IMG/VR virus record: IMGVR_UViG_3300031788_000094
Coordinates: 1 to 25,966 of that record
Reading direction: 5' to 3' (one strand)
DNA from: a virus
DNA length: 25,966 nt
Each line of letters begins with the position of its first letter. Within the stretch, counting starts at the first letter, position 1. The notes under the pieces were generated by a model that worked only from the letters and a program-made list of their open reading frames with translations, had not been told where the DNA came from and ran no database searches. This document shows positions 5,316-25,966 of the stretch, piece by piece. The position numbers were made by a program, and so were the translations under genes.

Positions 5316-6086
5316 TTACTTGACTGTTGCTTTAGTACCAGAAGTCGTCGGTGCCGTAGTGTTATCCACGGTGACTTGATTGCTAGAACCAGTATTAGCC
5401 GGATCATAGAAATTAGTCAAGCCTTTTACTCCAAGACTGCGAGAATTCATGTAGTTCGTTGTAGCGTTTACATTCACTACTGAAGCGGCATATGCTCCAG
5501 GAACGCTTGCGTTGAAATTGACCATGTTACCGGCGAAGAATCCAAGCTGTTGAGATACCTTAGTAAGATCTTGATTTGCGCCAAGATACGAGAATGTCCA
5601 ACGTTTGCCGTCTTGTAATGATTTCACTCGCTCTGCAATTTGGCCAGCATTGAATTTCTTGGAAGCATTTTCTTGGCCGTCACTGATGATAACCATAAGA
5701 AATGACGTATTCTCTTCATCGGCTTCAGGCAATGCTTTAAGCGAATCAATAGTCTGTCCGATAGCATCGTACATAGCAGTTCCACCTTCGGGCTGGTACT
5801 GATTGTAATCAAGCTCTTTCAAGGAAGCTACGTCTTGATTGAAGAACAAAGGAGGGTTAGCGTTCGATGCAAAAGTTACAAGGCTAACCTTGGTGTCAAC
5901 TTCGGCAGCGCCTTTCTTGATTGCGCGAACTTGCTCATTGAACATGTCCACGGCCTCACGTTGGATGTACGACATCGAACCGCTGCTATCTAAAAGAATG
6001 GCGATACGTGTCTTAAGGCCTTCAAAGTATGTGGTCGTCGTTGTGGTAGTTACTACTGTTTTTTTAATTTTCTTTGCTTTAGCCAT
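5316..6086 (-). CDS. von Willebrand factor A (vWA) domain protein with intact MIDAS
   Basis: This 256-residue protein has a Lys-rich N-terminus, a run of seven Thr (13-19) and a vWA domain at about 25-200. All metal-site (MIDAS) residues are visible: DSSGS (33-37), the Thr of GGTAMYDAIG (103) and the Asp of ISDGQEN (136). It should therefore bind a divalent metal and an acidic ligand on a partner protein. There is no signal peptide or membrane segment, so it acts in the cytoplasm or in a virion. The C-terminal 50 residues are Thr/Ser/Asn-rich and probably disordered. A Shine-Dalgarno AGGAA precedes the ATG. It is third in a unit with the ParB-like gene and an unknown gene, followed by SSB. 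No MoxR-type AAA+ partner is present in the window. The role is unknown. Confidence 0.92.
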   Translation of the reverse strand: MAKAKKIKKTVVTTTTTTTYFEGLKTRIAILLDSSGSMSYIQREAVDMFNEQVRAIKKGAAEVDTKVSLVTFASNANPPLFFNQDVASLKELDYNQYQPEGGTAMYDAIGQTIDSLKALPEADEENTSFLMVIISDGQENASKKFNAGQIAERVKSLQDGKRWTFSYLGANQDLTKVSQQLGFFAGNMVNFNASVPGAYAASVVNVNATTNYMNSRSLGVKGLTNFYDPANTGSSNQVTVDNTTAPTTSGTKATVK

Positions 6087-8062: not shown

Positions 8063-8875
8063 TTAATTACAGGCGTTTTTTTCTTGAGCGACCAATTTGC
8101 CAGTGGCAGTGGCAGCAGCTTGAGAAGTGCCAGTCATTTTCATACACATATTCTCACCACAAACCGGAACATCCTTACCTAACTCTGTTCTTGTAACGTC
8201 TTTGCCGTAGTTTGACATTGAAAGACGTTTTCCATCTTTATCCACCGCTCCAACTACTATCACGCGAGGATCGTCTTGTGCAGGGTAAAAGTGCATGTAA
8301 TCAAGGTTCACGCCCTCGTTACCAGCAGCGGCTACAAATTTTCCACCAGCATCCAAATACTCTTTAACTGCTTTAACTTCTTCATCATTTTTCATACTGC
8401 CGCCACCAGAATAATTGATGTAATCAGCATGAATATTTTTTGCGTAATTAATTGCTTGGATTGTTCCGCGCAGATTGGCTTCACCAAAATTATCTTCTTT
8501 GTAGTATTTCAAAATTACGAGACAATAGTTGACGCCAGTTTTAGATGCAAGCTCGTCAATGATACCTGCAATATGTGTCCCATGTCCATGTTTGTCAAGT
8601 GGAACGGGATCAGTAGTTCCAAATTTAGTTGTGGTCTCATCGCCTGAAAAATCTTTATGGCCAAATTTACAGAGCTTTACTTTCAGATCCATAGTGTCGA
8701 GGCCGAAACCAGTATCTATGACAGCCACAACGATTGGCTTCTTATCGCAATTCTTTTGCGGAGTCTTGACTATTGGTCTGTGCGGTCCTACTCTATGGGG
8801 TAGCGGCTTTACCGTTTCGGTATTGCAACATGAGAGGCTTAGGAACGCTGTGACTAGAATGAACGTAAATCTCAT
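8063..8875 (-). CDS. Secreted subtilisin-like serine protease (S8), probable lipoprotein
   Basis: This 270-residue protease has an N-terminal export signal (MRFTFILVTAFLSLSCCNTE). Cys16/Cys17 give a lipobox-like end, though it is not a perfect lipobox. The subtilase catalytic set is complete: Asp54 in VIDTG, His98 in HGHGTH, oxyanion Asn186 in AAGNEG and Ser251 in GTSQAAA. The chain is short for a subtilase and lacks an obvious long pro-domain: only about 30 residues lie between the signal and the catalytic core. Several further Cys (43, 68, 117, 239, 244, 269) could form disulfides in the periplasm. It lies between the polymerase gene and the accessory trio, 31 bases after the polymerase stop. 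Its substrate is unknown. Such an exported enzyme might act on envelope proteins or on exclusion of other phages. Confidence 0.93.
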   Translation of the reverse strand: MRFTFILVTAFLSLSCCNTETVKPLPHRVGPHRPIVKTPQKNCDKKPIVVAVIDTGFGLDTMDLKVKLCKFGHKDFSGDETTTKFGTTDPVPLDKHGHGTHIAGIIDELASKTGVNYCLVILKYYKEDNFGEANLRGTIQAINYAKNIHADYINYSGGGSMKNDEEVKAVKEYLDAGGKFVAAAGNEGVNLDYMHFYPAQDDPRVIVVGAVDKDGKRLSMSNYGKDVTRTELGKDVPVCGENMCMKMTGTSQAAATATGKLVAQEKNACN

Positions 8876-8906: not shown

Positions 8907-11900
8907 TCAAGTCTCTACTACTACTCTCACGATAGACAAGTCCTTCTTATCCACCTTCTTCCTAAAAAAGACTGTAGCTATAGCGCCTTTCTTTAGTGTC
9001 TCAGGATAAAGCAGCTTTCCTGTCTCATATTCAGGCCATAGGACCTTTTCTGAAACATAGCCATCGGCGTCAAGTATCAATTTGAGAGCACGCTTAGTTC
9101 CACCAGAATACGAGAATTCTTTGGCCTGAATGATAAAGCAGGTTGACGCAACGTAGATATCTTTGGCCAGACCTTCGCCAGGCAGTTCGTCTAAGCGTTT
9201 AAGCTTATCCCCGCCAATCAGAAGGGTATTGTAGCCCCTAGAGTTTATAACCATAGGAGTAGGCGTTCCAGCTAGCACTTTAGAGTGCCTGCGACCCAAG
9301 TCGAATAGGTTGATGGGCAGCGAAGGCAGCACGGCCTTTTTCATAGCTGCTTCTGCAATAGGCTGTAAGTTTATGTATCCTTCAGGTATCTTTCCTTCAT
9401 TAGGCTGAAGTTTCCTAACCGTTTTACCATCCTGCTGTGCTTTTTTTACTTTATCTGCGTACTTCTTACATTCCACTGTATCTTCATACATTTTGAGCTT
9501 TTCAAGTAGCCCCGTTCGCGGAGGAAAGAGGCTGTCGAGCACCCCGACATGAATGAGCTTGTGGCTAAGGCTATCACCAGCAACTTCTTTTTCCACGTAG
9601 TCTTTGATGTCGGCATATGGTCTCCCATTTACGATTGGGTCAATAGTAGCTTCGCCCATGCCACGAATTACTCCTAGCTTGGAACGAATTTTTTCGTTTG
9701 CGTAATCCACGACCATGAAATCGCCAGACAGATTAATGTCAGGAGGCAAAACCATGTCTTTAACATAGGGCCAGAAAGATCCTGTGATCTCCTGTTCTGA
9801 GGCGTTGGTGAGTATTGATGCCCACCATTCCATCGGATAGTAGTGCTTGAGAAACATACAAGCGTAGGTAATCAGTGCGTATTCAACTGCGTGAATGATC
9901 GAGAATCCGTAGCGACCAAAGGTGATCATTCGGTCCCAGATACCTTCTGCGACTTCAGGAGACACTTTTTTCAGTGCGCCTTCGATGAACAACGGCTTCA
10001 TTTTCATAAGCTCAGTCATCTTCTTTTTGGCCATATTCTCTCTGAGTAGCTCTGCGTCTTCACCTGAGAAGCCAGCTAAGTCACGAGCAATAGTTCCAAG
10101 TTGTTCTTGGAATGCCAAAATGCCAAACGTGTCTGGGAGCAGCGCTGCCATTTCAGGAATGTCAGGAGTAGCTTCGCCACGACGACGCATCATATATTCT
10201 TCGACCATGTTACGGCCAGTAGTCTCGTCGATAAAATCAAGAGGACCAGGGCGAACCAGAGCTAGCAACGTAGCCAAGTCCATTATATTTTTTGGAAGCA
10301 TGTCGATAACGTGTGGACGCATCGACGGAGTATTGATTTGAAAGAAAGTCTCAGTGAAACCTTCCCACACAGAAGTAAATACCTCGTGTTGTTCAGGTAG
10401 ATCCCAAATGTACATCTTTTTGCCGTTGTGACTGAAATCTCCGACTACATTCTTTTCGCCATGTTTCTTATTGATTAGGTCAAGGCAAATACGAATGTCT
10501 TTAAGCTGTTTTACGACTAGGAAGTCATACTTGATGAGGCCAGCCGCTTCACACTCTTTGGTTTCATACTGAGTGATGTTTCCTTCTTTTGTAGGAATTA
10601 CATCGCTAATAGGAACGTCAGACAAAACGAATGCGCAAGGGTGCTTAGAAAATGCACGGGTCAAGCCCATGGCCTTAGATACAATTTCCCACTCCTTAGG
10701 ACGCTTCTGTGCGTATTCTTGAAGCTCAGTAGATTGCTCGATCAGACCTGGAATGTGCTCGCCATCAGTGTCCTCATATCCAAACACGTAGTCGCGGTCT
10801 GATACGCCCTGTGGAGGGCTTCCGAAGCCTTTAGTCAGGACTTCAATCTCAGGGTCAACCTTACCAAAGAAGTAGCGATTGGTGTCCTTGATGGCGCTCT
10901 TGAGGCGAATAGTAGTACGAGTAGAGATGCGAGCAGCTTTATTTCCCCAGCGACCATATAAGTAGCCAGATTTGCCGTCTTCGCCGGTCAATAAATCAGA
11001 ACTCTCCAAATCCACGTCGATATCTGGCAATTTCTTACCTTTAATACGGACCATGGAGAAGAATCGTTGAAACGGCAAGTCATATTTGAATGGGTCAACG
11101 TGCGTAATGCCAGTGATGTAGCATAGCAAAGATCCACCGGCAGAACCACGTCCTGGGCCTGTAAGCTGGCCTTGCTCTTTATAGTGGTTGAGTACGTCAC
11201 GAATAGGTAGGAAATAAGGCGATAGATCGTATATTCCGTTGCTGTGAATGACCGCTAATTCTTCTTTTAGGCGAGCCATATACTTAGGATCGTCCCATTT
11301 CATTCGGCCAGTCTCTTTGGCAATTTTCATCAGTTCTTGAATTGCAGAACCTTCAGACTTAGCTAAGCGCCAGTCGTATTTGAGCTTAAATCCATCGTAA
11401 TTTTTAGCCCAGGACTCATTACCAGATATGATACCGTCTACGTCGGCGGGATTGAAATCCATGATGTTGACTAAATAGTCGCCAACTTCTTGGGTGGTTT
11501 TCATGTGTAGATTAGGTTGAAGTTTATTGTTTCCCTCTAATCTCATAGTTTGAACTATTTTATCGCTTTTATGTGAATAATACGCGTAGTCGGTCACTAA
11601 GATGTTTATGTTTTCTTTTCTAGCAAGAGCTAAAAGAAACCTGTTCGATTTAAGAGTGACGTCTATTCCTAACGGCAGGAAACCCTTGTGCAGCTTTACG
11701 GAATCAACGTCTTTGTTTATATTATAAAAGGACATTTCTTTGGACAAAGACTTTATATGGGAATGTCCCTTACGTTCAATTAAATCGAATGCCTTGATGC
11801 ATCTAGCCCTATCGGTAGTAACAGTATCGTTAGCCATTAACGCGTCTTTGGTTCCATCTACATATTTTATTTCTACGACCTGACTCCATTTTTTTGTCCA

Positions 11901-12443
11901 GGGTTCTACCAATAATGCCACATATAGATTTTTACCAAAGATCTTTTTCAGTTCTAGCAATATGTTTTGGCCTACGTCGGCGCGGCCAGCTAACATAGGT
12001 TTAGAAACCATGTCGTGGATTCCACCAAGAACACAGTCCACGTCGTATTTCGCTATTTCTTTTAAGTGAGACCATGACCAGAGTTGACGAGCTTCTTCGT
12101 AAAGCTCAATAGTAGGGAAATCTATGCGACTTACCATCTTAACCAAAGCCTGATAGGATTCTTGATTTTTACAGTAAATCGTAGCGGTAAAATATTTACA
12201 ACGATCCGCCTCTGTACCGGATATGAACGGACAATTGCTGTCTTTAAAATAAATCTCAATTCCAGGTATGAACTTCAAATTGTTTTTCTTACAGAGTTCA
12301 TAGGCCTTAATAGTAGACGAAAGGTGGCCATGACAAGTCGCAGCAAAGTGGGTTCTTCCAAGTTCCTTGGCGGCTTTGATCAATGACAATAGGGTGCTTC
12401 CTGTTAATGGATCTTCTATATGGCAATGTGGAGAAACTTTCAT
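8907..12443 (-). CDS. dnaE: DNA polymerase III alpha subunit (C-family replicative polymerase)
   Basis: This 1178-residue protein matches E. coli DnaE (1160) in length. The N-terminal PHP domain (1-about 270) has PHCHIED, ATCHGH and IPGIEIY, but the usual TDH is TCH, so metal binding there may be partly lost. The palm has GPGRGSAGGS (429-438) and PDIDVD (473-478), with catalytic Asp476 and Asp478 and the third Asp640 in IKYDFL. The finger region has ILAFQEQLGTIARDLAGFS, RENMAKKKM and YGFSIIHAVEYALITYACMF, and is followed by a C-terminal part. All active-site aspartates are kept, so it should be the phage replicase. About 115 residues between the active-site Asp pair and AFSKHPCAF are unlike my memory of DnaE. 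The ATG overlaps the HNH gene stop (ATGA). The upstream proofreading exonuclease and RNase H fit one replisome operon. Confidence 0.96.
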   Translation of the reverse strand: MKVSPHCHIEDPLTGSTLLSLIKAAKELGRTHFAATCHGHLSSTIKAYELCKKNNLKFIPGIEIYFKDSNCPFISGTEADRCKYFTATIYCKNQESYQALVKMVSRIDFPTIELYEEARQLWSWSHLKEIAKYDVDCVLGGIHDMVSKPMLAGRADVGQNILLELKKIFGKNLYVALLVEPWTKKWSQVVEIKYVDGTKDALMANDTVTTDRARCIKAFDLIERKGHSHIKSLSKEMSFYNINKDVDSVKLHKGFLPLGIDVTLKSNRFLLALARKENINILVTDYAYYSHKSDKIVQTMRLEGNNKLQPNLHMKTTQEVGDYLVNIMDFNPADVDGIISGNESWAKNYDGFKLKYDWRLAKSEGSAIQELMKIAKETGRMKWDDPKYMARLKEELAVIHSNGIYDLSPYFLPIRDVLNHYKEQGQLTGPGRGSAGGSLLCYITGITHVDPFKYDLPFQRFFSMVRIKGKKLPDIDVDLESSDLLTGEDGKSGYLYGRWGNKAARISTRTTIRLKSAIKDTNRYFFGKVDPEIEVLTKGFGSPPQGVSDRDYVFGYEDTDGEHIPGLIEQSTELQEYAQKRPKEWEIVSKAMGLTRAFSKHPCAFVLSDVPISDVIPTKEGNITQYETKECEAAGLIKYDFLVVKQLKDIRICLDLINKKHGEKNVVGDFSHNGKKMYIWDLPEQHEVFTSVWEGFTETFFQINTPSMRPHVIDMLPKNIMDLATLLALVRPGPLDFIDETTGRNMVEEYMMRRRGEATPDIPEMAALLPDTFGILAFQEQLGTIARDLAGFSGEDAELLRENMAKKKMTELMKMKPLFIEGALKKVSPEVAEGIWDRMITFGRYGFSIIHAVEYALITYACMFLKHYYPMEWWASILTNASEQEITGSFWPYVKDMVLPPDINLSGDFMVVDYANEKIRSKLGVIRGMGEATIDPIVNGRPYADIKDYVEKEVAGDSLSHKLIHVGVLDSLFPPRTGLLEKLKMYEDTVECKKYADKVKKAQQDGKTVRKLQPNEGKIPEGYINLQPIAEAAMKKAVLPSLPINLFDLGRRHSKVLAGTPTPMVINSRGYNTLLIGGDKLKRLDELPGEGLAKDIYVASTCFIIQAKEFSYSGGTKRALKLILDADGYVSEKVLWPEYETGKLLYPETLKKGAIATVFFRKKVDKKDLSIVRVVVET

Positions 12444-15443: not shown

Positions 15444-16103
15444 TCATTGTCCGGCTCTAAAGAATTTTAGGCCCTTAGTTTGCTTTTGCAGCCCTCTAAG
15501 GCATTGACTAATTGCGTCTTGGCTTAACGATAATTTTATCGATGCTTCTTTTATCGTAGAGAAAAACATGCCATTTGAGCACATGATCGGAGACGATCTG
15601 TATTTCCTGATACGGAATTCTGGTTTTTCATCTTTAGATTTCCAAAACTGAAGGTTCTTTACTGTTATGTTTTTACCGGAAAGAACCAAGCAAATTGCCG
15701 ATTCGCTAGAACCAATATCCAAAGCAGCCTCTTTTATAGAGGCGTATGTTTTTCCGTTAGAACAAACAATCTCTGTTGGTCGCCCATGATGTGTAGTTCC
15801 GCCGTCTCCGCCTTCAGTCATATTTTTTAATTTCGGATTTATTTTTTTATAGTACGCTATCCAAAATATTTCTCTGGAATTGATGTTTTCTTTTGAAATA
15901 CCGCTTTCTAGTATCTGCATGATAGGTTGTTTGCTTTTCGATTTTAAAGAAATAATCCACGATTTTTTCAATGATTTTTTCGCATTAATATTTACGTGTG
16001 CATAGTATCTTTTTTTAGGATTAGTAGATTTTCCAATATAATATTGCAATCCAGTAGCCGGATCACACAGCGCGTATACAGAAAAAGTTTTATTTTTTAT
16101 CAT
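15444..16103 (-). CDS. GIY-YIG homing endonuclease with two IENR1 repeats
   Basis: This 219-residue protein has an N-terminal GIY-YIG nuclease: VYAL (9-12), YYIGKS (21-26), the conserved Arg32, Glu in NSREIFWIAYY, and the NMTEGGDGG turn. The C-terminal half carries two tandem IENR1/NUMOD1 DNA-binding repeats, each starting with a 'CSNG..' strand (VCSNGKTYASIKEAAL and MCSNGMFFSTIKEASI). It lacks the NUMOD3 repeats of the enzyme at 1358. The coding sequence is clearly more A+T-rich than its neighbours, a common sign of recent arrival. The ATG overlaps the stop of the A1-like gene (ATGA) with AGGA just upstream, so it depends on the host operon for expression. By family it homes into nearby genes of related phages. 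Confidence 0.93.
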   Translation of the reverse strand: MIKNKTFSVYALCDPATGLQYYIGKSTNPKKRYYAHVNINAKKSLKKSWIISLKSKSKQPIMQILESGISKENINSREIFWIAYYKKINPKLKNMTEGGDGGTTHHGRPTEIVCSNGKTYASIKEAALDIGSSESAICLVLSGKNITVKNLQFWKSKDEKPEFRIRKYRSSPIMCSNGMFFSTIKEASIKLSLSQDAISQCLRGLQKQTKGLKFFRAGQ

Positions 16104-17749
16104 TTTTTCCTATTTATTCGCCATTTTCCGCCAATAGAATTTATGAGTTGCCGTTGACCATTAGGATAAATTAATGCAGAGCAATGCATCCAGCTGCTCG
16201 CACCGACGTTGTATCCCAAATCAAAAAGACTAGAAGTTCCAACCTGGTATACTCCACGTAATATCCCAGGAGTGTGGCTGTGCGCTATTACGCAACGACC
16301 ATAGGCGTTTTCCATATTTGCTTTACTGCCTCTAGATCCATTGGGACCTTTATCGCCATGGCTTCCGAGTTCTATTCCCGCTATTTTATAATCTTCGTCC
16401 CTATCTAAGAACTGGATTTTGTTCCAATTTTTTAGCTTATAGCATTCTCTTAGGCCTTCTTTTAAGGCGTCTAATCCATCTACCAACCTATCCGCCAGCT
16501 TGCAACCAATTTGAAAATTTAAGGCATCGTACTTAAAGCGACCCTCTTCTAACCATCGACTGAGGAATTCGTCGTGATTACTTTTAACAATGACACCTTT
16601 CTTGACACTTTTATGTGACAAAATTCGATCTAACTGTTCGCCTGTTACTCGTAACTCATCGGAAAGACTCAATAATCCGCGTTTCGAGTGACGTGCCCTG
16701 AGCACGATATTATGTTGTTCGTGATGTGAAATACTCTTTCCATTGAATAGGTCGTGAAAGAAAACCTCGTCAACGCCCATAGATTCGATAATTTCTTCCC
16801 ACGCACTGATAGCAGTGTCGTCGTGCTCTCCAGCGTGGTAATCGCCCATTACGAGCTTAGGAGTGACCTTGCGCGGCTTGTTGTCTCCGATGTAGTAGAA
16901 GCCATGGTGACATACGCCACCTTCAAGATCGGCCTGGATCTGAGTAAAATGGTAAATTTTATCATCTTCAACCTCAACGATCAAAGCGCCAACAACATGG
17001 TCGTGCTCAGCTATATAAGCAGTACGCAGGGAATTGCCCTGTGTCGAGCTATAGTTGGCCACAGTGCATGCACCTGTACTCATCCTAGCATGAGGATACT
17101 TAATGTTGGAAACTGGGTCATATTCAAGACTCTGCTTTGGAGAAGCAAAAATGAAGCTGCCTTTGCCTTGGCAAATTCTACCCAAGCCAGTAGTAGGATT
17201 GATCTGCTTGGCATTGATGCGCAGGCTAGAAATTCGTATATTAGAATTCAAGATAGTGGATTCAAAGATGAATTGGTGATCCTTCAATTTTTCATCGAAA
17301 TGCCACTCGATTTCGTTGTCCAAATTATGTGCAGGATCGTGTGAAGGTAATATTAAAATCTTAGCTTTAAGCTCTGACGATAAAAAGCTAAGTGTTTCCA
17401 TGAACTTAGGGTGTGCCCATTGTCCATTAACAGCCGTGGTAACAATAAACGTTTTGTGTTTCTTGATATCTTTGGCTAATTTAGCTCTGGCTTTCGAGGA
17501 AGTGAAATTATTCTCTTCGATGATTCCATGAAACGCTTCGGGAAACATCATTTTTGCAGCAATACGTAGGCCTGTAATGTTGACAAAATGGTGCCGGATT
17601 TTGTCTCGTGTAATACCTACCAGAGCCAAATCGTTTCTAGTTGGAAACATGTTCTTTTGTTGAACAATTTGCACGTATGCTTCAGTTAGTTCACGTTTTA
17701 GGGTAGACTCGTCCGGTTCTACCCGTTTAGGCTTCTGTTTCTTGCTCAT
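16100..17749 (-). CDS. Large metallophosphoesterase, likely T5 A1-family DNA nuclease
   Basis: This 549-residue protein has calcineurin-like phosphoesterase motifs in its C-terminal half: GDYHAGEHD (302-310), FHDLFNG (331-337), SNHDEFLSRW (390-399), GSHGDKGPNGS (462-472) and AHSHTPG (489-495). Together they supply the usual Asp, His and Asn metal ligands. The N-terminal 70 residues look like a basic, helix-turn-helix-like module (PTRNDLALVGITRDKIRHHF). Length and motif order fit the A1 protein of phage T5, which is needed for host DNA breakdown early in infection. That assignment is from memory of the family. A different nuclease or phosphatase role remains possible. The gene has GGGAAA before its ATG, and its stop overlaps the GIY-YIG start. 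Confidence 0.88.
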   Translation of the reverse strand: MSKKQKPKRVEPDESTLKRELTEAYVQIVQQKNMFPTRNDLALVGITRDKIRHHFVNITGLRIAAKMMFPEAFHGIIEENNFTSSKARAKLAKDIKKHKTFIVTTAVNGQWAHPKFMETLSFLSSELKAKILILPSHDPAHNLDNEIEWHFDEKLKDHQFIFESTILNSNIRISSLRINAKQINPTTGLGRICQGKGSFIFASPKQSLEYDPVSNIKYPHARMSTGACTVANYSSTQGNSLRTAYIAEHDHVVGALIVEVEDDKIYHFTQIQADLEGGVCHHGFYYIGDNKPRKVTPKLVMGDYHAGEHDDTAISAWEEIIESMGVDEVFFHDLFNGKSISHHEQHNIVLRARHSKRGLLSLSDELRVTGEQLDRILSHKSVKKGVIVKSNHDEFLSRWLEEGRFKYDALNFQIGCKLADRLVDGLDALKEGLRECYKLKNWNKIQFLDRDEDYKIAGIELGSHGDKGPNGSRGSKANMENAYGRCVIAHSHTPGILRGVYQVGTSSLFDLGYNVGASSWMHCSALIYPNGQRQLINSIGGKWRINRKK

Positions 17750-20799: not shown

Positions 20800-21147
20800 T
20801 TATCTCCTATAGTCGAATACGACTGATTTTTTTAAAACTTCATTCTTAGTCAAAAACGAAACAAATGCCTCTATCAAAAAGAAGTGAGGCTCGCGGCCAG
20901 ATGACACTTCTCTACCAGAGAGCCTGATAGGAAAGGCCCGCTTTACGTATTCCTGAGAGGCAATACTGAGCATCAACTCGAAATCCTTTAACGTAATAAG
21001 CTGTGGCTCAGGAGTCAAAGATTTCTCTTCTGCTAACTGCTTCTTAAGGTCTTCAATTTCGTCCATCAAACCTTTAACCGTAGCGTAGGCCACTGCTTGG
21101 TTTGACGTGTATAAATGTGAAAGAAGCTTGTCGGCGCTGGTACTCAT
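20800..21147 (-). CDS. Hypothetical protein coupled to gp46
   Basis: This 115-residue protein is not recognised. An N-terminal helical part (to about 45) contains IEDLKKQLAEEKS, a short coiled coil. A mixed region follows (PQLITLKDFELMLSIAS). The end has basic and aromatic residues (REPHFFLIEAFVSFL). The ATG overlaps the stop of the gp46-like gene (ATGA), so it is probably co-translated with it. No direct evidence of function. Confidence 0.74.
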   Translation of the reverse strand: MSTSADKLLSHLYTSNQAVAYATVKGLMDEIEDLKKQLAEEKSLTPEPQLITLKDFELMLSIASQEYVKRAFPIRLSGREVSSGREPHFFLIEAFVSFLTKNEVLKKSVVFDYRR

Positions 21148-23201
21148 GCTGATTTCTCGATCTTGCTTACTAGGCCGTCTCTGACTACTATGAGTCGATC
21201 TTGCACCATTTGTTTTACTTCTGAGTTGTGATCCACTATAACTATCTTCTTGTTAGTATTGGAGTTTTTAAGAACTTCCAGGGCCATCTCGATCTCTACA
21301 GGTCCAAGTCCAGTGAAGGGTTCATCCAAGATAAACAGGTTTATTCCCTTGCCAGATTTTGACTCGATAAAGTCGATAACTGCCAAATCAACCGCTATGT
21401 CTACCGCAGATCTTTCTCCGCCAGACAGACTTCTGATGGGTACGGCTTCTTCGCCATCCATCCCAATAACAGCATTCACTTCTTCTTTGACTTTGCCATC
21501 TTTGGTCTCTTTTGTACCATCGAATTGTATAGTAGCATTACTCATATTAGGAATGCAACGAATAATTTTAGTCGCACGGTCGCCAATCGAGTTGAGAGCA
21601 TCGTCGAAAGAATACGAGAGAAATGTTTTGATGGCTTTCTTGGTATCTTCTGCAAGCGACAGATCGTTTGAAATGTTTACAAGATTGAGTTGATGTTCAG
21701 CGATCTTGCTGCCGTAGGTGTGTTCTTTAGTTTTTAGAGAGTCAAACGTGTTTTGGTATCTAAGTCTCGCATCGTCGTAGGCCTTAAACTTAGCAACGGC
21801 CTGTTCAAAAACTCTGCTTTGCAAGTCAACGTTGTTTCGATATTGTTCCAGTTCACGATTGGCTCTTGTAGCAAACTCAGTAGTTCTTTGTGTAAACTTT
21901 GCAATCTCCGCACTGTTTGCGGAGTTTTGACGAGCAATGTCCGCATCACCCTTGAGCTTCTCAGCCAAATGGTTAGCGTGAGCCTCTCTAAGCTGTTCGT
22001 TAAGGCCTGGCATCTCAGGAGGAACCTTGCCTTGGTCTTGACCCTCTAGCTCTGTAGCTTCGTAGTTCAATGTTTCTAGATCGGTGACAGCTTTAGTTCC
22101 AGCGTCTATGATTATCTTTAGTCGAAGTATCTGAGTCAGTCTTTCGCGTTCTTGTGCGCTATATTGCTCTGTCACCCAGGTCTGCTCGCAGGTAGGACAT
22201 ATTGCAGCACGGATCTTCTTGATTTCGTCTGCTAACCTTACAGTCTCTTGGCGTGCGCCATATGCCGATACGACAGCGGCTTCAGCATCTTTACGAGCTT
22301 GCTTATTCTTGGCAACGGCAGTACGAACAGCTGCAATTCTATCTTTATCTGCTTGAAAAAGGGCATTCAGTTGTTGATTGAGGCTTAGAATTTCGTCGGA
22401 ATATTTGTCTAGATTGGTCCTGTCGAATGGGACGACCTTAGTATTAGGACGTTCCTTTTCTAACTCATTGCCTCTCTCAATCCAAGAGAGGTTGGCAAGT
22501 CTGTGGCTTTCTGACGCCTCGTCCAGTTTCTTCTTGAGGCTAAGGATCATTTCCTGATCTACTTCTTTAACAGGAGGAAGTCCAAGTGCTTCGATGGCAT
22601 CTCTAGTAGCTTGCAGGCCTTGAATTTGACCGTCAAGCAAGGATTGTTCACTGGCTTTCTTAGCAGTTAGATCCTTTATTTTTGTGTCTTCTGCGTCATC
22701 AAACTTTCTAAAGATGGATAGGTCTAAACAGTCTATCAAGAATTCGTGCTTTTGGGAAGCGGTCATGTCGATAAAAAAACCGCCTTCCTTTTGTCGTTTG
22801 TGTAACAGCTTTCTGAAGATCTTTCTGGGCATACCAAGAATCATGTCGATCTTTTCTTCGGCCAACGCGCTGCTACCTTCCGTAACAGTGTCGCCAATTT
22901 TCACTCTGAGCTTTTTACCTCTAGTGATTTCGACTTTCTCGCCATTCCATAGGAATGAGCCAGAAACGACCATGTGTTCTTCTGAATATCTGCATTGTAG
23001 TACGGTGGATGGAATATCGTTTAGACCAAGGAGATAGTCCAAAGCGTTGAATAAGGTACTTTTGCCTGAACCACTGGAACCTCCAGTGTTATTGTTCAAA
23101 GCGTCTACCTGAATGAATTGGCTTAGCGATGCGAAGTCTACGGTCTGTTCTTCAACGAACCTACCGATTCGCTCTAAGCTCATGCCGAGTAAATCTAGCA
23201 C
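21144..23201 (-). CDS. gp46: Rad50/SbcC-like ATPase of the recombination nuclease (T4 gp46-like)
   Basis: This 685-residue protein has the full SMC/Rad50 layout: Walker A GSSGSGKS (41-48), long coiled-coil arms (about 165-330 and 345-525) joined by a zinc hook CPTC (335-338), signature SLSGGERS (591-598), Walker B LFILDE (622-627) and the H-loop His658. With the gp47-like nuclease near the right edge it should form an Mre11-Rad50-type complex that resects DNA ends for recombination. The Walker A loop is preceded by an unusual Asn-rich stretch (ALNNNTGG) where Rad50 proteins usually have G.NG. The start is GTG at 23201, overlapping the upstream stop as TAGTG, with AGGGAA 5 bases before it. The downstream ATG at residue 7 is possible but lacks a ribosome binding site. 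Confidence 0.95.
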   Translation of the reverse strand: MLDLLGMSLERIGRFVEEQTVDFASLSQFIQVDALNNNTGGSSGSGKSTLFNALDYLLGLNDIPSTVLQCRYSEEHMVVSGSFLWNGEKVEITRGKKLRVKIGDTVTEGSSALAEEKIDMILGMPRKIFRKLLHKRQKEGGFFIDMTASQKHEFLIDCLDLSIFRKFDDAEDTKIKDLTAKKASEQSLLDGQIQGLQATRDAIEALGLPPVKEVDQEMILSLKKKLDEASESHRLANLSWIERGNELEKERPNTKVVPFDRTNLDKYSDEILSLNQQLNALFQADKDRIAAVRTAVAKNKQARKDAEAAVVSAYGARQETVRLADEIKKIRAAICPTCEQTWVTEQYSAQERERLTQILRLKIIIDAGTKAVTDLETLNYEATELEGQDQGKVPPEMPGLNEQLREAHANHLAEKLKGDADIARQNSANSAEIAKFTQRTTEFATRANRELEQYRNNVDLQSRVFEQAVAKFKAYDDARLRYQNTFDSLKTKEHTYGSKIAEHQLNLVNISNDLSLAEDTKKAIKTFLSYSFDDALNSIGDRATKIIRCIPNMSNATIQFDGTKETKDGKVKEEVNAVIGMDGEEAVPIRSLSGGERSAVDIAVDLAVIDFIESKSGKGINLFILDEPFTGLGPVEIEMALEVLKNSNTNKKIVIVDHNSEVKQMVQDRLIVVRDGLVSKIEKSA

Positions 23202-23449
23202 TATTCTTCCCTATAATTCTTATCTGATCTTTTTTGGTTGATCTCAACGATATCGGGTATGATTTCTACTGCTCTGGCCTGAAGGCCATTGTCTACTGTT
23301 ATCTTAGATGAATTCGTGGGAGAAGACAAGAGCTTTTTCATTTGTTTTTCGCACTTATCACAAATAATAAAGGCAGGTACATCCTTCACCTGCCGATAAT
23401 ATTTCGTTTTAGAATTTTTACATTCGCACTGATAAGCAATGAGGGGCAT
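23201..23449 (-). CDS. FmdB-like small zinc-ribbon protein
   Basis: This 82-residue protein begins MPLIAYQCEC, then CDKCEKQMKKLLSSP. The Cys at 8, 10, 30 and 33 form a zinc ribbon of the type seen in FmdB-like regulatory proteins, except that the first pair is C.C, not C..C. The tail (VDNGLQARAVEIIPDIVEIN) is polar and seems to be extended. FmdB-like genes are widespread in phages with unknown roles. It sits between the protease and gp46 genes and shares the TAGTG junction with gp46, so it may help regulate or bind that complex. That is only position-based. Confidence 0.82.
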   Translation of the reverse strand: MPLIAYQCECKNSKTKYYRQVKDVPAFIICDKCEKQMKKLLSSPTNSSKITVDNGLQARAVEIIPDIVEINQKRSDKNYREE

Positions 23450-23450
23450 A

Positions 23451-24344
23451 TTATTTCAGCATGTCGTTTTGCAGGATAGCACAGAGACTTTTTACTTTCA
23501 CTTTTTCAGGTGATTCGCAAACAGACTCAAGCTTCTGCATCATTTCTTCTGATCGCTTCGCGCCGCCAGGGAACAGGTTGACCACATTTGTGGGCTTCGT
23601 GTAGTTCAGCTTGTGGGCTTCTTTGGTCAGGAAATTGCGGACGTATTCGTAAGGAACGGTCCATGCGTATCCAAACTCGCCAGAACCAGCGAAAACAACA
23701 CCCGCAAGTTCGCCTTGCTCGTTGTACACTGCACTGCCGCTCGAACCAGACATAATCGTAGCCGTGACTAATACTGAATCGTATTGCTTAATGATCGGCA
23801 GTCCGCCTAACATCACACAGTACATAGTCTTGTCAGGGTCAGCCATGTCTTCGTCGGAGCACGGTTTGAATCCAGTCAAGATAGCGATTGTTTGTCGTCC
23901 AGAGAAGTGTCCAACGGTTTTGACATTGGGATACAAGGCTGGATGGCCAGAGATAAGGGCTAATTCGTAATATGCTACTGGAGGACGGCTAGCGAGCTTT
24001 GCTCCGCCTTGCAGATCGCCAGACACTTTAAGTAGACATAAATCGTGCGTTTCAGACTTCTTATACTCAGTAACCGTAAAAGTACCGGCAACGCCTGCGA
24101 CTTTTCCGCCCTCTTCAACCACACCACAAACGTGGGAGTTAGTAAGGACTAGCGAAGAACTTGGACTGGACTTCAGGATGATACCTGTTCCACCATGATT
24201 TCCTGCCATGTTTGTAACTTTTACACTATTTGCTGTAGCATCGTGCGATACGTCTGACTGCGCGTTTTGTTTTGGCTGTACGGACGTACATGCGGACAAC
24301 GCCAGCACTGCTACTAACAGTGTCTTTTTTACTAGGGAAATCAT
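23451..24344 (-). CDS. Trypsin-like serine protease, exported lipoprotein
   Basis: This 297-residue protein has a clear lipoprotein signal: basic start (MISLVKK), hydrophobic core and lipobox LSAC with Cys19, so it should be anchored in the periplasm or outer membrane. The trypsin-fold catalytic triad is visible: His71 in TNSHVCG, Asp101 in HDLCLLKV and Ser202 in GSSGSAVY. GTGIILKS before the His and GELAGVVFAG after the Ser are typical of the DegP/S1C type. No PDZ domain follows; the last 60 residues are charged with several Cys. It lies between the gp47/HTH genes and the FmdB-like gene, in an otherwise cytoplasmic recombination cluster. A strong AAGGAG, partly in a small hairpin, precedes the ATG. 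The substrate is unknown. Confidence 0.93.
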   Translation of the reverse strand: MISLVKKTLLVAVLALSACTSVQPKQNAQSDVSHDATANSVKVTNMAGNHGGTGIILKSSPSSSLVLTNSHVCGVVEEGGKVAGVAGTFTVTEYKKSETHDLCLLKVSGDLQGGAKLASRPPVAYYELALISGHPALYPNVKTVGHFSGRQTIAILTGFKPCSDEDMADPDKTMYCVMLGGLPIIKQYDSVLVTATIMSGSSGSAVYNEQGELAGVVFAGSGEFGYAWTVPYEYVRNFLTKEAHKLNYTKPTNVVNLFPGGAKRSEEMMQKLESVCESPEKVKVKSLCAILQNDMLK

Positions 24345-24362
24345 ATAACTCCTTTAAGTTAT
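24345..24362 (-). promoter_or_regulatory. Small hairpin overlapping the protease ribosome binding site
   Basis: On the minus strand ATAACT and AGTTAT form a perfect 6-base stem around a 6-base loop (TAAAGG). AAGG of the AAGGAG Shine-Dalgarno sequence lies in the loop and the last AG lies in the stem. The ATG follows directly after the stem. An A+U-rich 6-pair stem is weak, so any effect on translation would be mild. The whole 20-base gap before the protease gene is taken up by it. Confidence 0.35.
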
Positions 24363-24364
24363 TG

Positions 24365-25021
24365 TTATTTTTTCTCTTCTTCGCGTCTCAAATCGGCGTA
24401 GTGTTTTAGCACGTCGCCAATGGCCTTCTGTTTGGGCGTAATCTCAATCTGGTTGTCGCTATTGCGAGTAACCGTTGCGCCTTCACCTAAATTCAACCCA
24501 ATGAGTGGACCTTTATCCTTGGGCGCTTCTGCTGTAGACTTCTGCAAAAGTTCGATAGTCTTCATATACCGATCAATCTCTTTCAAGTTGATCTGGTCTG
24601 AAAACTCTTCGTTGTTCGTTTCCAAATAACGAGTGATCTTGTGACCAATCTTCTTCTGCCACATTTGCGCTAACTGCAATAAGAAGTCTTGACTCTGTAG
24701 CTTGGCTTCCATCACACGACGTTTCATGTGGTCAGCCAATTCCACCATGTACTCTTTTCTTATATCACACCAATTCAATTTGTGCGAGAAATACATAACA
24801 ATAACACGGTCAGTACGGGTAATTGTCGAAATCTGATCGTAAGTTTTACCAGAAAGGTAAAGCTCCATCATTTTTCCGATCTTAGTTTCATCAACGGCAG
24901 AGACTCCAGGCAAACCTGAGTCAATGTATTTTTGAACTTTTTTCATGGACTCATCAGAGATGTCGGTCATCTTGATGGTATCCACTACTATGTCTGGCAA
25001 ATTGCTATTTTCGTCGCTCAT
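24365..25021 (-). CDS. Helix-turn-helix protein, possibly terminase-small-subunit-like
   Basis: This 218-residue protein has an acidic N-terminus, then a helix-turn-helix-like region at about 47-82: KIGKMMELYLSGKTYDQIST then a turn and VIVMYFSHKLNWCDIR. Long helices follow (about 88-160). The C-terminus has a charged tail ending ADLRREEEKK. The order HTH, helical body, tail is like phage small terminase subunits and other phage HTH proteins, but no large terminase gene is near, so a transcription or DNA-binding role is equally possible. It is coupled by ATGA to the gene upstream and lies 20 bases before the protease gene. Confidence 0.82.
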   Translation of the reverse strand: MSDENSNLPDIVVDTIKMTDISDESMKKVQKYIDSGLPGVSAVDETKIGKMMELYLSGKTYDQISTITRTDRVIVMYFSHKLNWCDIRKEYMVELADHMKRRVMEAKLQSQDFLLQLAQMWQKKIGHKITRYLETNNEEFSDQINLKEIDRYMKTIELLQKSTAEAPKDKGPLIGLNLGEGATVTRNSDNQIEITPKQKAIGDVLKHYADLRREEEKK

Positions 25022-25404
25022 TTCTTACTCTTGTAGGCGGACTTTCCGTCAATGTACACTTCTATCACGAGATCTTTCCAGAACAATGTTCGGAGAGCCC
25101 CTTCCAGAGCGGCAAAGCGAACGTCAAGTCTCTCATTGAAGGAGCCCTCTCTTAAAGAGAGGTAGTAGGTGATACTATTGCTCCTGATCGGAGCGTTGAC
25201 AGTCAAATTGTTGTCTTTATCGACCAAAGCATCTGCTTGGTGAGACAGATCGTATTCAACTTTGGCTTCTCTTACGCCATCGAAGAAAAGGAAAGGATAC
25301 ATTTTCATGTTCTTTTCATGCATTTCTGAAATCTTGCCGGACACCAGAACCAGTTTGGCCATGTCCTTTACGATATTTGCGGCATTATCATCTGATGATT
25401 CCAT
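25018..25404 (-). CDS. Hypothetical protein between gp47 and the HTH gene
   Basis: This 128-residue protein is not recognised. It has an acidic start (MESSDDNAANIVKDM) and a mixed alpha/beta body with strands around SITYYLSLREG and DLVIEVYIDGK. There is no signal peptide, cysteine motif or catalytic pattern. The ATG lies 17 bases inside the end of the gp47-like gene, and its stop overlaps the next start as ATGA. It is thus translated with the recombination genes. Confidence 0.74.
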   Translation of the reverse strand: MESSDDNAANIVKDMAKLVLVSGKISEMHEKNMKMYPFLFFDGVREAKVEYDLSHQADALVDKDNNLTVNAPIRSNSITYYLSLREGSFNERLDVRFAALEGALRTLFWKDLVIEVYIDGKSAYKSKK

Positions 25405-25966
25405 TATCCCTCATATATTTCAGCAACTTAGGCCTGCGCTCTACATCGCATGAGTATAGGTTTGTCATAAAATCCTGGAAGTCTCTTCCAGGCTTGCGCT
25501 CTGTCTTGTTGGCCCTATCTGTGATCTTCGTAGACAGACTAACGGTGCCCTTGAGCACTTTCTTTTGGTCGCCTACCCATTGAGATGAGCCAATCAATTC
25601 GATATTGACCTTGCACCCGCTAGGAATCGCAGGAAGGTCCTTCCCTTCTTCCCAGACTAGGCTAACGATCTTTGTTACTACGCCAGCGGTGCGAATCAGC
25701 GTTTCATTGACGATAGCACCAGTAATATCGTCGTGTTCATACAGCCAGATACCCTTGTCTTCGTTTGCGTCAGACAGGCTATCCCATTTAGGAGTGCCAG
25801 GATGGATTATAGTTTTTCCATCGGCAACACATTTTTGATGGGCATGAATATGTCCTGAGATGATGAGATCGAAGGGGATTGGACTTGGGTCAATTCCTTC
25901 TGGGTCGTAGGTGCCGGACTCGAACTTAGATGTGCTAAAGGACTGATGACAGATGAGAACCTTGGA
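25388..25966 (-). CDS. gp47: Mre11/SbcD-like nuclease, C-terminal part (T4 gp47-like)
   Basis: An open frame with no stop extends to the right edge, so the N-terminus is missing; 192 residues are visible. An in-frame TTG at 25597 is not the true start. The fragment starts SKVLICHQSF, which corresponds to the late His motif of Mre11 nucleases, then FDLIISGHIHAHQ (about 32-44) with the GHIH metal-ligand motif. A strand-rich segment follows with IIHPGTPKWDSLSD and KGIWLYEHDD, the usual end of the nuclease domain. The last 60 residues are basic, as expected for the Rad50-binding part. By family it is the partner of the gp46-like ATPase in resecting DNA ends. The early catalytic motifs lie outside the window. 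Confidence 0.88.
   Translation of the reverse strand, partial: SKVLICHQSFSTSKFESGTYDPEGIDPSPIPFDLIISGHIHAHQKCVADGKTIIHPGTPKWDSLSDANEDKGIWLYEHDDITGAIVNETLIRTAGVVTKIVSLVWEEGKDLPAIPSGCKVNIELIGSSQWVGDQKKVLKGTVSLSTKITDRANKTERKPGRDFQDFMTNLYSCDVERRPKLLKYMRDNGIIR

Follow-up and report, generated by a model that had tools for sequence, protein, structure and literature searches.

Background

To our knowledge, exported proteases are no usual part of phage gene sets. The HtrA/DegP/DegQ proteases share with the enzyme reported here the trypsin fold, the same triad motifs and action outside the cytoplasm (fold and location being predicted for the phage enzyme), and the staphylococcal Spl proteases and V8 (glutamyl endopeptidase) resemble it in being single-domain secreted enzymes of the trypsin fold. 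Phages of the Bacillus SPO1 type encode proteases with an S8 domain, and the superinfection-exclusion lipoproteins Ltp, Llp and Cor are phage-encoded and exported; the known lipoproteins of this kind are binders and, unlike the enzyme described here, Ltp, Llp and Cor are not proteases. We have analysed a stretch of 25,966 nucleotides of viral DNA (IMG/VR record IMGVR_UViG_3300031788_000094, here called the window), for which a sequence-only reading had proposed an exported lipoprotein protease of the trypsin type, and have compared it with related phages.

An exported trypsin-type protease encoded between gp47 and gp46

The protease gene occupies exactly positions 23451..24344 on the minus strand, starts with ATG, encodes 297 aa and is preceded by a Shine-Dalgarno sequence (AAAGGAG, 24349..24355, minus strand) at 4-5 bases from the startcodon. 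The N-terminus of the protein, MISLVKKTLLVAVLALSAC-TS, consists of a positive n-region, a hydrophobic h-region and an LSAC lipobox with Cys19 (24288-24290), the signal peptide and lipobox together covering 24288..24344 (minus strand), and our export-signal screen placed a hydrophobic segment at residue 8, with a hydrophobicity of 2.5, a net charge of +2 and the LSAC motif. The product has the sequence features of a bacterial lipoprotein, lipidation itself being a prediction. Residues 52-216 match Pfam Trypsin_2 (E 1.5e-11, 45.7 bits versus a cut-off of 27.6), and the catalytic residues are His71 in LTNSHVC (codon 24132..24134), Asp101 in HDLCLL (24042..24044) and Ser202 in GSSGSAV (GSSGS; 23739..23741), all on the minus strand. 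In the family-profile alignment the triad positions coincide with those of DegP/DegQ and the Spl proteases: His71 aligns with the His motif of both groups, Asp101 with the DegP/DegQ Asp motif, and Ser202 with the G-x-S-G motif of DegP and Spl-type proteases. Open reading frame, signal screen and Trypsin_2 match thus agree with the sequence-only reading, which had described a lipoprotein with an LSAC lipobox and a complete His-Asp-Ser triad. The AlphaFold model (mean pLDDT 84.2) has a beta-rich core at residues 40-230, with only approximately 60, mostly helical residues following the protease domain, and a search with domain profiles gave no match to a PDZ domain, as had also been stated. Purifying selection acts on the gene (dN/dS 0.09 versus L001; dS is saturated in pairs deeper than this one). 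It is well supported that the protein is exported and equipped as a serine protease, and its conservation suggests that it would be active.

The protease gene lies between the genes for the two halves of an Mre11-Rad50 complex, confirming the position originally given, in the order gp47 - 128 aa - 218 aa - protease - FmdB-like 82 aa - gp46, with all genes on the minus strand. The gp47/SbcD-like gene (25388..25966, PHROG_100 E 1.4e-8) is represented by its C-terminal part and runs off the window, and is followed by the 128-aa gene (25018..25404), which is conserved in the phages sharing this arrangement, and the 218-aa gene (24365..25021), which forms the upstream flank of the protease slot. 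The downstream flank is a zinc-ribbon gene of 82 aa (23201..23449, PHROG FmdB-like E 0.0015), present in most of these phages, and then comes the gp46/SbcC-like (Rad50) gene (21144..23201, PHROG_77 E 3.6e-45). As these genes are all co-directional and tightly packed, they probably form one operon. The counterparts of the 128- and 218-aa genes in Myxococcus phage Mx1 are located directly 5' of the terminase large subunit gene, and the profile of the 218-aa family matches the Mx1 gene at that position with E 7.5e-20, which makes a terminase small subunit the probable identity of the 218-aa protein. An operon containing such a gene would not be purely early, and together with the sigma-factor-like gene found upstream in relatives this lends no support to the suggestion that the protease acts early in infection.

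Several other genes were observed around this cluster. In Mx1 the FmdB-like and gp46 genes are immediately preceded by a GroEL gene, and GroEL-like chaperonin genes are also present in relatives (L001:2310-4082, L020:3175-4890 and L194:3145-4860); in L020 and L194 the chaperonin gene immediately precedes the trypsin gene. Relatives also have genes for small lipoproteins close to gp47 or gp46 (L001:7340-7582, L004:2276-2518 and L005:8724-8963), which could encode outer-membrane spanin partners. Elsewhere in the window there is a GIY-YIG-type homing endonuclease-like ORF at 1358-1975, with matches to NUMOD3 and a PHROG homing endonuclease family, a second one recognised by eye only at 15444-16103, and at 16100-17749 a 549-aa protein whose GDYH and SNHDE-like motifs hint at a phosphoesterase, although it has no Pfam match at E 0.1.

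Conservation of the trypsin family

The alignment of 22 family members contains 35 invariant residues, among them the triad (22/22) and the cysteines at positions 73, 103, 162 and 176, which could pair in disulfides once the protein is outside the cytoplasm. All 22 likewise keep a segment for export or anchoring at the N-terminus, as a lipobox in six and as a hydrophobic anchor or signal in the others, so that homologues lacking signal or triad, which had been named as evidence that would speak against an exported protease, were absent from this set. Apart from the position next to gp46, the family was found in 13 distinct phages of other kinds. There was no relative in approximately 50,700 named phages and no cellular relative when 84,980 genomes of bacteria and archaea were scanned by pattern, a type of scan which distant relatives can escape. 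The best single-sequence matches of the window protease are the Spl/V8 enzymes (best E 0.009), and its sequence relatives of solved structure are Spl/V8 and DegP/DegQ proteases, all of them distant. Matches of the trypsin to PADLOC models were weak and probably reflect the shared fold only, and an identity as anti-phage defence protein was rejected.

One position, two unrelated exported proteases

Profile scans of IMG/VR with gp46 and with the trypsin family gave 29 distinct phages, including the window, which have this gene arrangement and in which the slot was covered. Each of these has exactly one exported serine protease in the slot, which is of the trypsin type in nine (the window, L001, L004, L018, L043, L045, L176/177, L178 and L191/193) and of the ClpP fold in the other 20; none of the 29 has both enzymes and none has neither. 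The alternative enzyme is a ClpP-fold (S14) protein with an N-terminal signal (Pfam CLP_protease E 2.4e-14), which matches ClpP structures with E-values down to 6.7e-20 (A4 against 1y7o), and in which Ser and His coincide with those of the active site of ClpP, with mostly Glu at the Asp position. A genome scan with A4 found only distant ClpP-like matches. Among the ORFs of at least 200 aa in loci L021-L051 (31 loci, n=230) an export-like N-terminus was detected in 29/29 slot proteases versus 1/201 others, the single exception looking like a false positive (p 5e-36, which is indicative only, since several loci are near-copies and not all are independent).

Phages keeping the slot have gp46 proteins which are only 33-68% identical, and in the gp46 tree the trypsin phages appear in three places, requiring three changes, and well-supported branches make at least two of these unavoidable. 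This suggests that selection keeps proteolytic activity outside the cytoplasm and not one particular fold. Replacement by an enzyme of unrelated fold also argues for a more generic proteolytic role than the narrow substrate range which the absence of PDZ domains had been taken to imply. The sequence-only reading missed this exchange, as it did the link with endolysins in other phages described below.

Co-occurrence with an S8 protease

The second exported protease proposed for the window proved real: an S8 subtilase with a lipoprotein-like signal is encoded at 8063..8875 on the minus strand (Pfam Peptidase_S8 E 1.5e-25), with the Asp-His-Ser motifs DTG, HGTH and GTSQA, and adjoins its upstream neighbour, a DnaE-type DNA polymerase gene (8907..12443, minus strand, Pfam DNA_pol3_alpha E 1.5e-46). 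Its lipobox is less canonical (..LSLSCC..), and relatives have LISC, LMSC, ISGC, LAGC, LLGC or an ordinary signal. The trypsin-type gene and the S8 gene are the only window ORFs of at least 70 aa passing the export-signal screen, apart from an overlapping ORF of no standing on the opposite strand (25605-25838). Downstream of the S8 gene, at 5316-6086, is a VWA-domain protein with relatives among functionally uncharacterised phage families (phrog_7371, E 5e-38).

The pairing of exported proteases is widespread beyond the window. An S8 gene carrying an N-terminal signal adjoins DnaE in those group members that were checked. All eight group records of at least 150 kb (G002, G003, G008, G014, G017, G022, G023 and G037) contain S8, the group records lacking it being mostly fragments. 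Seven of the 13 distinct phages with trypsin elsewhere also have S8, versus 0/30 control phages of similar total length, a comparison which is supportive and not exact because the control contigs were mostly shorter. In one phage the S8 and trypsin-type genes are adjacent and overlap by four bases (L190:4276-5852), and in another they are approximately 2 kb apart (L182).

Possible roles of the exported proteases

The reading we favour, with a little less than even confidence, is that the exported slot protease serves envelope breakdown at lysis, as part of a two-protease periplasmic system. It was ranked first because the only three endolysins (family phrog_7) detectable in the 21 trypsin phages, those of L183, L189 and L192, all lie within 1.3 kb of the trypsin gene, the three distances being 141, 494 and 1241 bases, although the chance figure for this proximity was worked out after these three cases had been seen. 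Small membrane proteins flank the trypsin gene in several phages, two of them, just downstream in L019 and L186, with weak matches to Rz spanins (E 1e-5 to 5e-5), and the solved relatives of the fold include the periplasmic DegP/DegQ. On the other hand, the cases are few, with three endolysins and weak spanin matches, and Mx1 manages without either protease. In the window's own group no recognised lysis gene was seen beside the slot, which is situated in a recombination/terminase-like operon, and a search of the group genomes for an amidase gave no match. A recurring family of proteins of approximately 165 aa, which combine charged repeats with a membrane segment at the N-terminus and are encoded near the trypsin gene in three phages (L183:4378-4884, L182:5779-6300 and L192:966-1457), is possibly spanin-like.

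If, as we infer, the enzyme is active and the host diderm, the host would export and lipid-anchor a serine endoprotease which would then work in the periplasm on host envelope proteins. The phage lineage keeps two exported serine proteases, the slot enzyme, with trypsin and ClpP folds interchangeable, and the S8 subtilase. Acting beside the endolysin, they would degrade or loosen envelope proteins and in this way bring about successful lysis and release of virions. That an unrelated fold has repeatedly taken over the slot, and that S8 is there as a partner, suggests that generic envelope proteolysis matters. The proposal that the phage may reshape the host periplasm is a reasonable deduction. 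A Bdellovibrio-like predator was also considered as host, as such cells live by exported proteases, and no evidence for one was found.

More tentatively, the S8 protease and the trypsin-fold or exported ClpP-fold slot enzyme may constitute a two-enzyme module for periplasmic proteolysis, kept by a lineage of large phages and by several unrelated phages and needed for productive infection, for instance for envelope breakdown beside or instead of spanins. Repeated replacement by an unrelated exported protease at a fixed position is natural evidence that extracytoplasmic proteolysis is useful to a phage, and raises the question which envelope component must be cut for phage success.

A role in periplasmic turnover or quality control, in which a DegP-like phage enzyme clears damaged periplasmic proteins after host shut-off or recycles amino acids, is rather unlikely but a serious rival. 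DegP and DegQ are among the closest solved relatives, and phage GroEL is found in relatives, next to the trypsin gene in two of them. Lacking an unfoldase, a ClpP-fold enzyme would have peptides or unfolded chains as its main substrates, which suits clearance, but there is no PDZ domain, and turnover leaves the proximity to endolysin genes in three phages unexplained.

Slightly less likely again, and likewise a serious rival, is superinfection exclusion, with the anchored protease cutting, in the periplasm, either a receptor or the tail proteins of an incoming phage and so closing the cell to other phages. Some known superinfection-exclusion proteins are lipoproteins encoded by phages, for example Ltp from phages of Streptococcus thermophilus (PMC3952083). 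Exclusion is also in line with the six lipobox-containing family members and with the location of the window-group gene away from known lysis genes. However, the exchange with a ClpP fold and the presence of S8 as a partner are more readily explained by generic digestion than by cutting of a specific receptor, the known exclusion lipoproteins act by binding, and the PHROG match to Cor (E 0.058) covers the signal region only.

That the protease is an incidental passenger from a host, with no steady phage function, would fit the frequent uptake of host genes by phages and the commonness of trypsin-like proteases in bacteria, but is very improbable and close to refuted: the slot is empty in 0/29 phages and its enzyme is swapped and not lost despite the divergence of gp46, selection on the gene is purifying, and the genome scan gave no cellular relative, although a distant one can be missed; we rejected it on slot conservation and swapping. 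A head-maturation protease, to which the ClpP-fold alternative does show matches in the libraries, is the least probable of all and was rejected, since a segment for export or anchoring is present in every member and, in several of the same genomes (e.g. G002 and G014), a further ClpP-family gene is located outside the slot.

Comparison with known systems

Despite the similarity in fold, the window enzyme was rejected as a DegP orthologue: it has no PDZ domain, is by prediction lipid- or membrane-anchored, and scores 19 bits with the NCBIfam DegP-family model, far below the cut-off of 416.2. The Spl and V8 enzymes differ from it in being soluble, Gram-positive and not phage-encoded, and are distant in sequence. 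ClpP (S14) shares its fold and the Ser-His pair with the alternative slot enzyme, which differs from it in being exported, in a C-terminal extension of approximately 100 aa and in the mostly Glu-occupied Asp position; both are unrelated to the trypsin-type enzyme of the window. With regard to the second protease, the S8 enzymes of the Bacillus SPO1-like phages are approximately 35% identical to that of the window and belong to another phage lineage and host. Mx1, the nearest named phage, has gp47, the 128/218-type genes, gp46, FmdB-like, GroEL and DnaE (33.5%) in common with the window lineage, whereas it is without both exported proteases. No description of such a protease slot or arrangement was found in the literature searched, and while the component folds are known, the way in which they are arranged and the exchange between unrelated exported proteases appear to be new.
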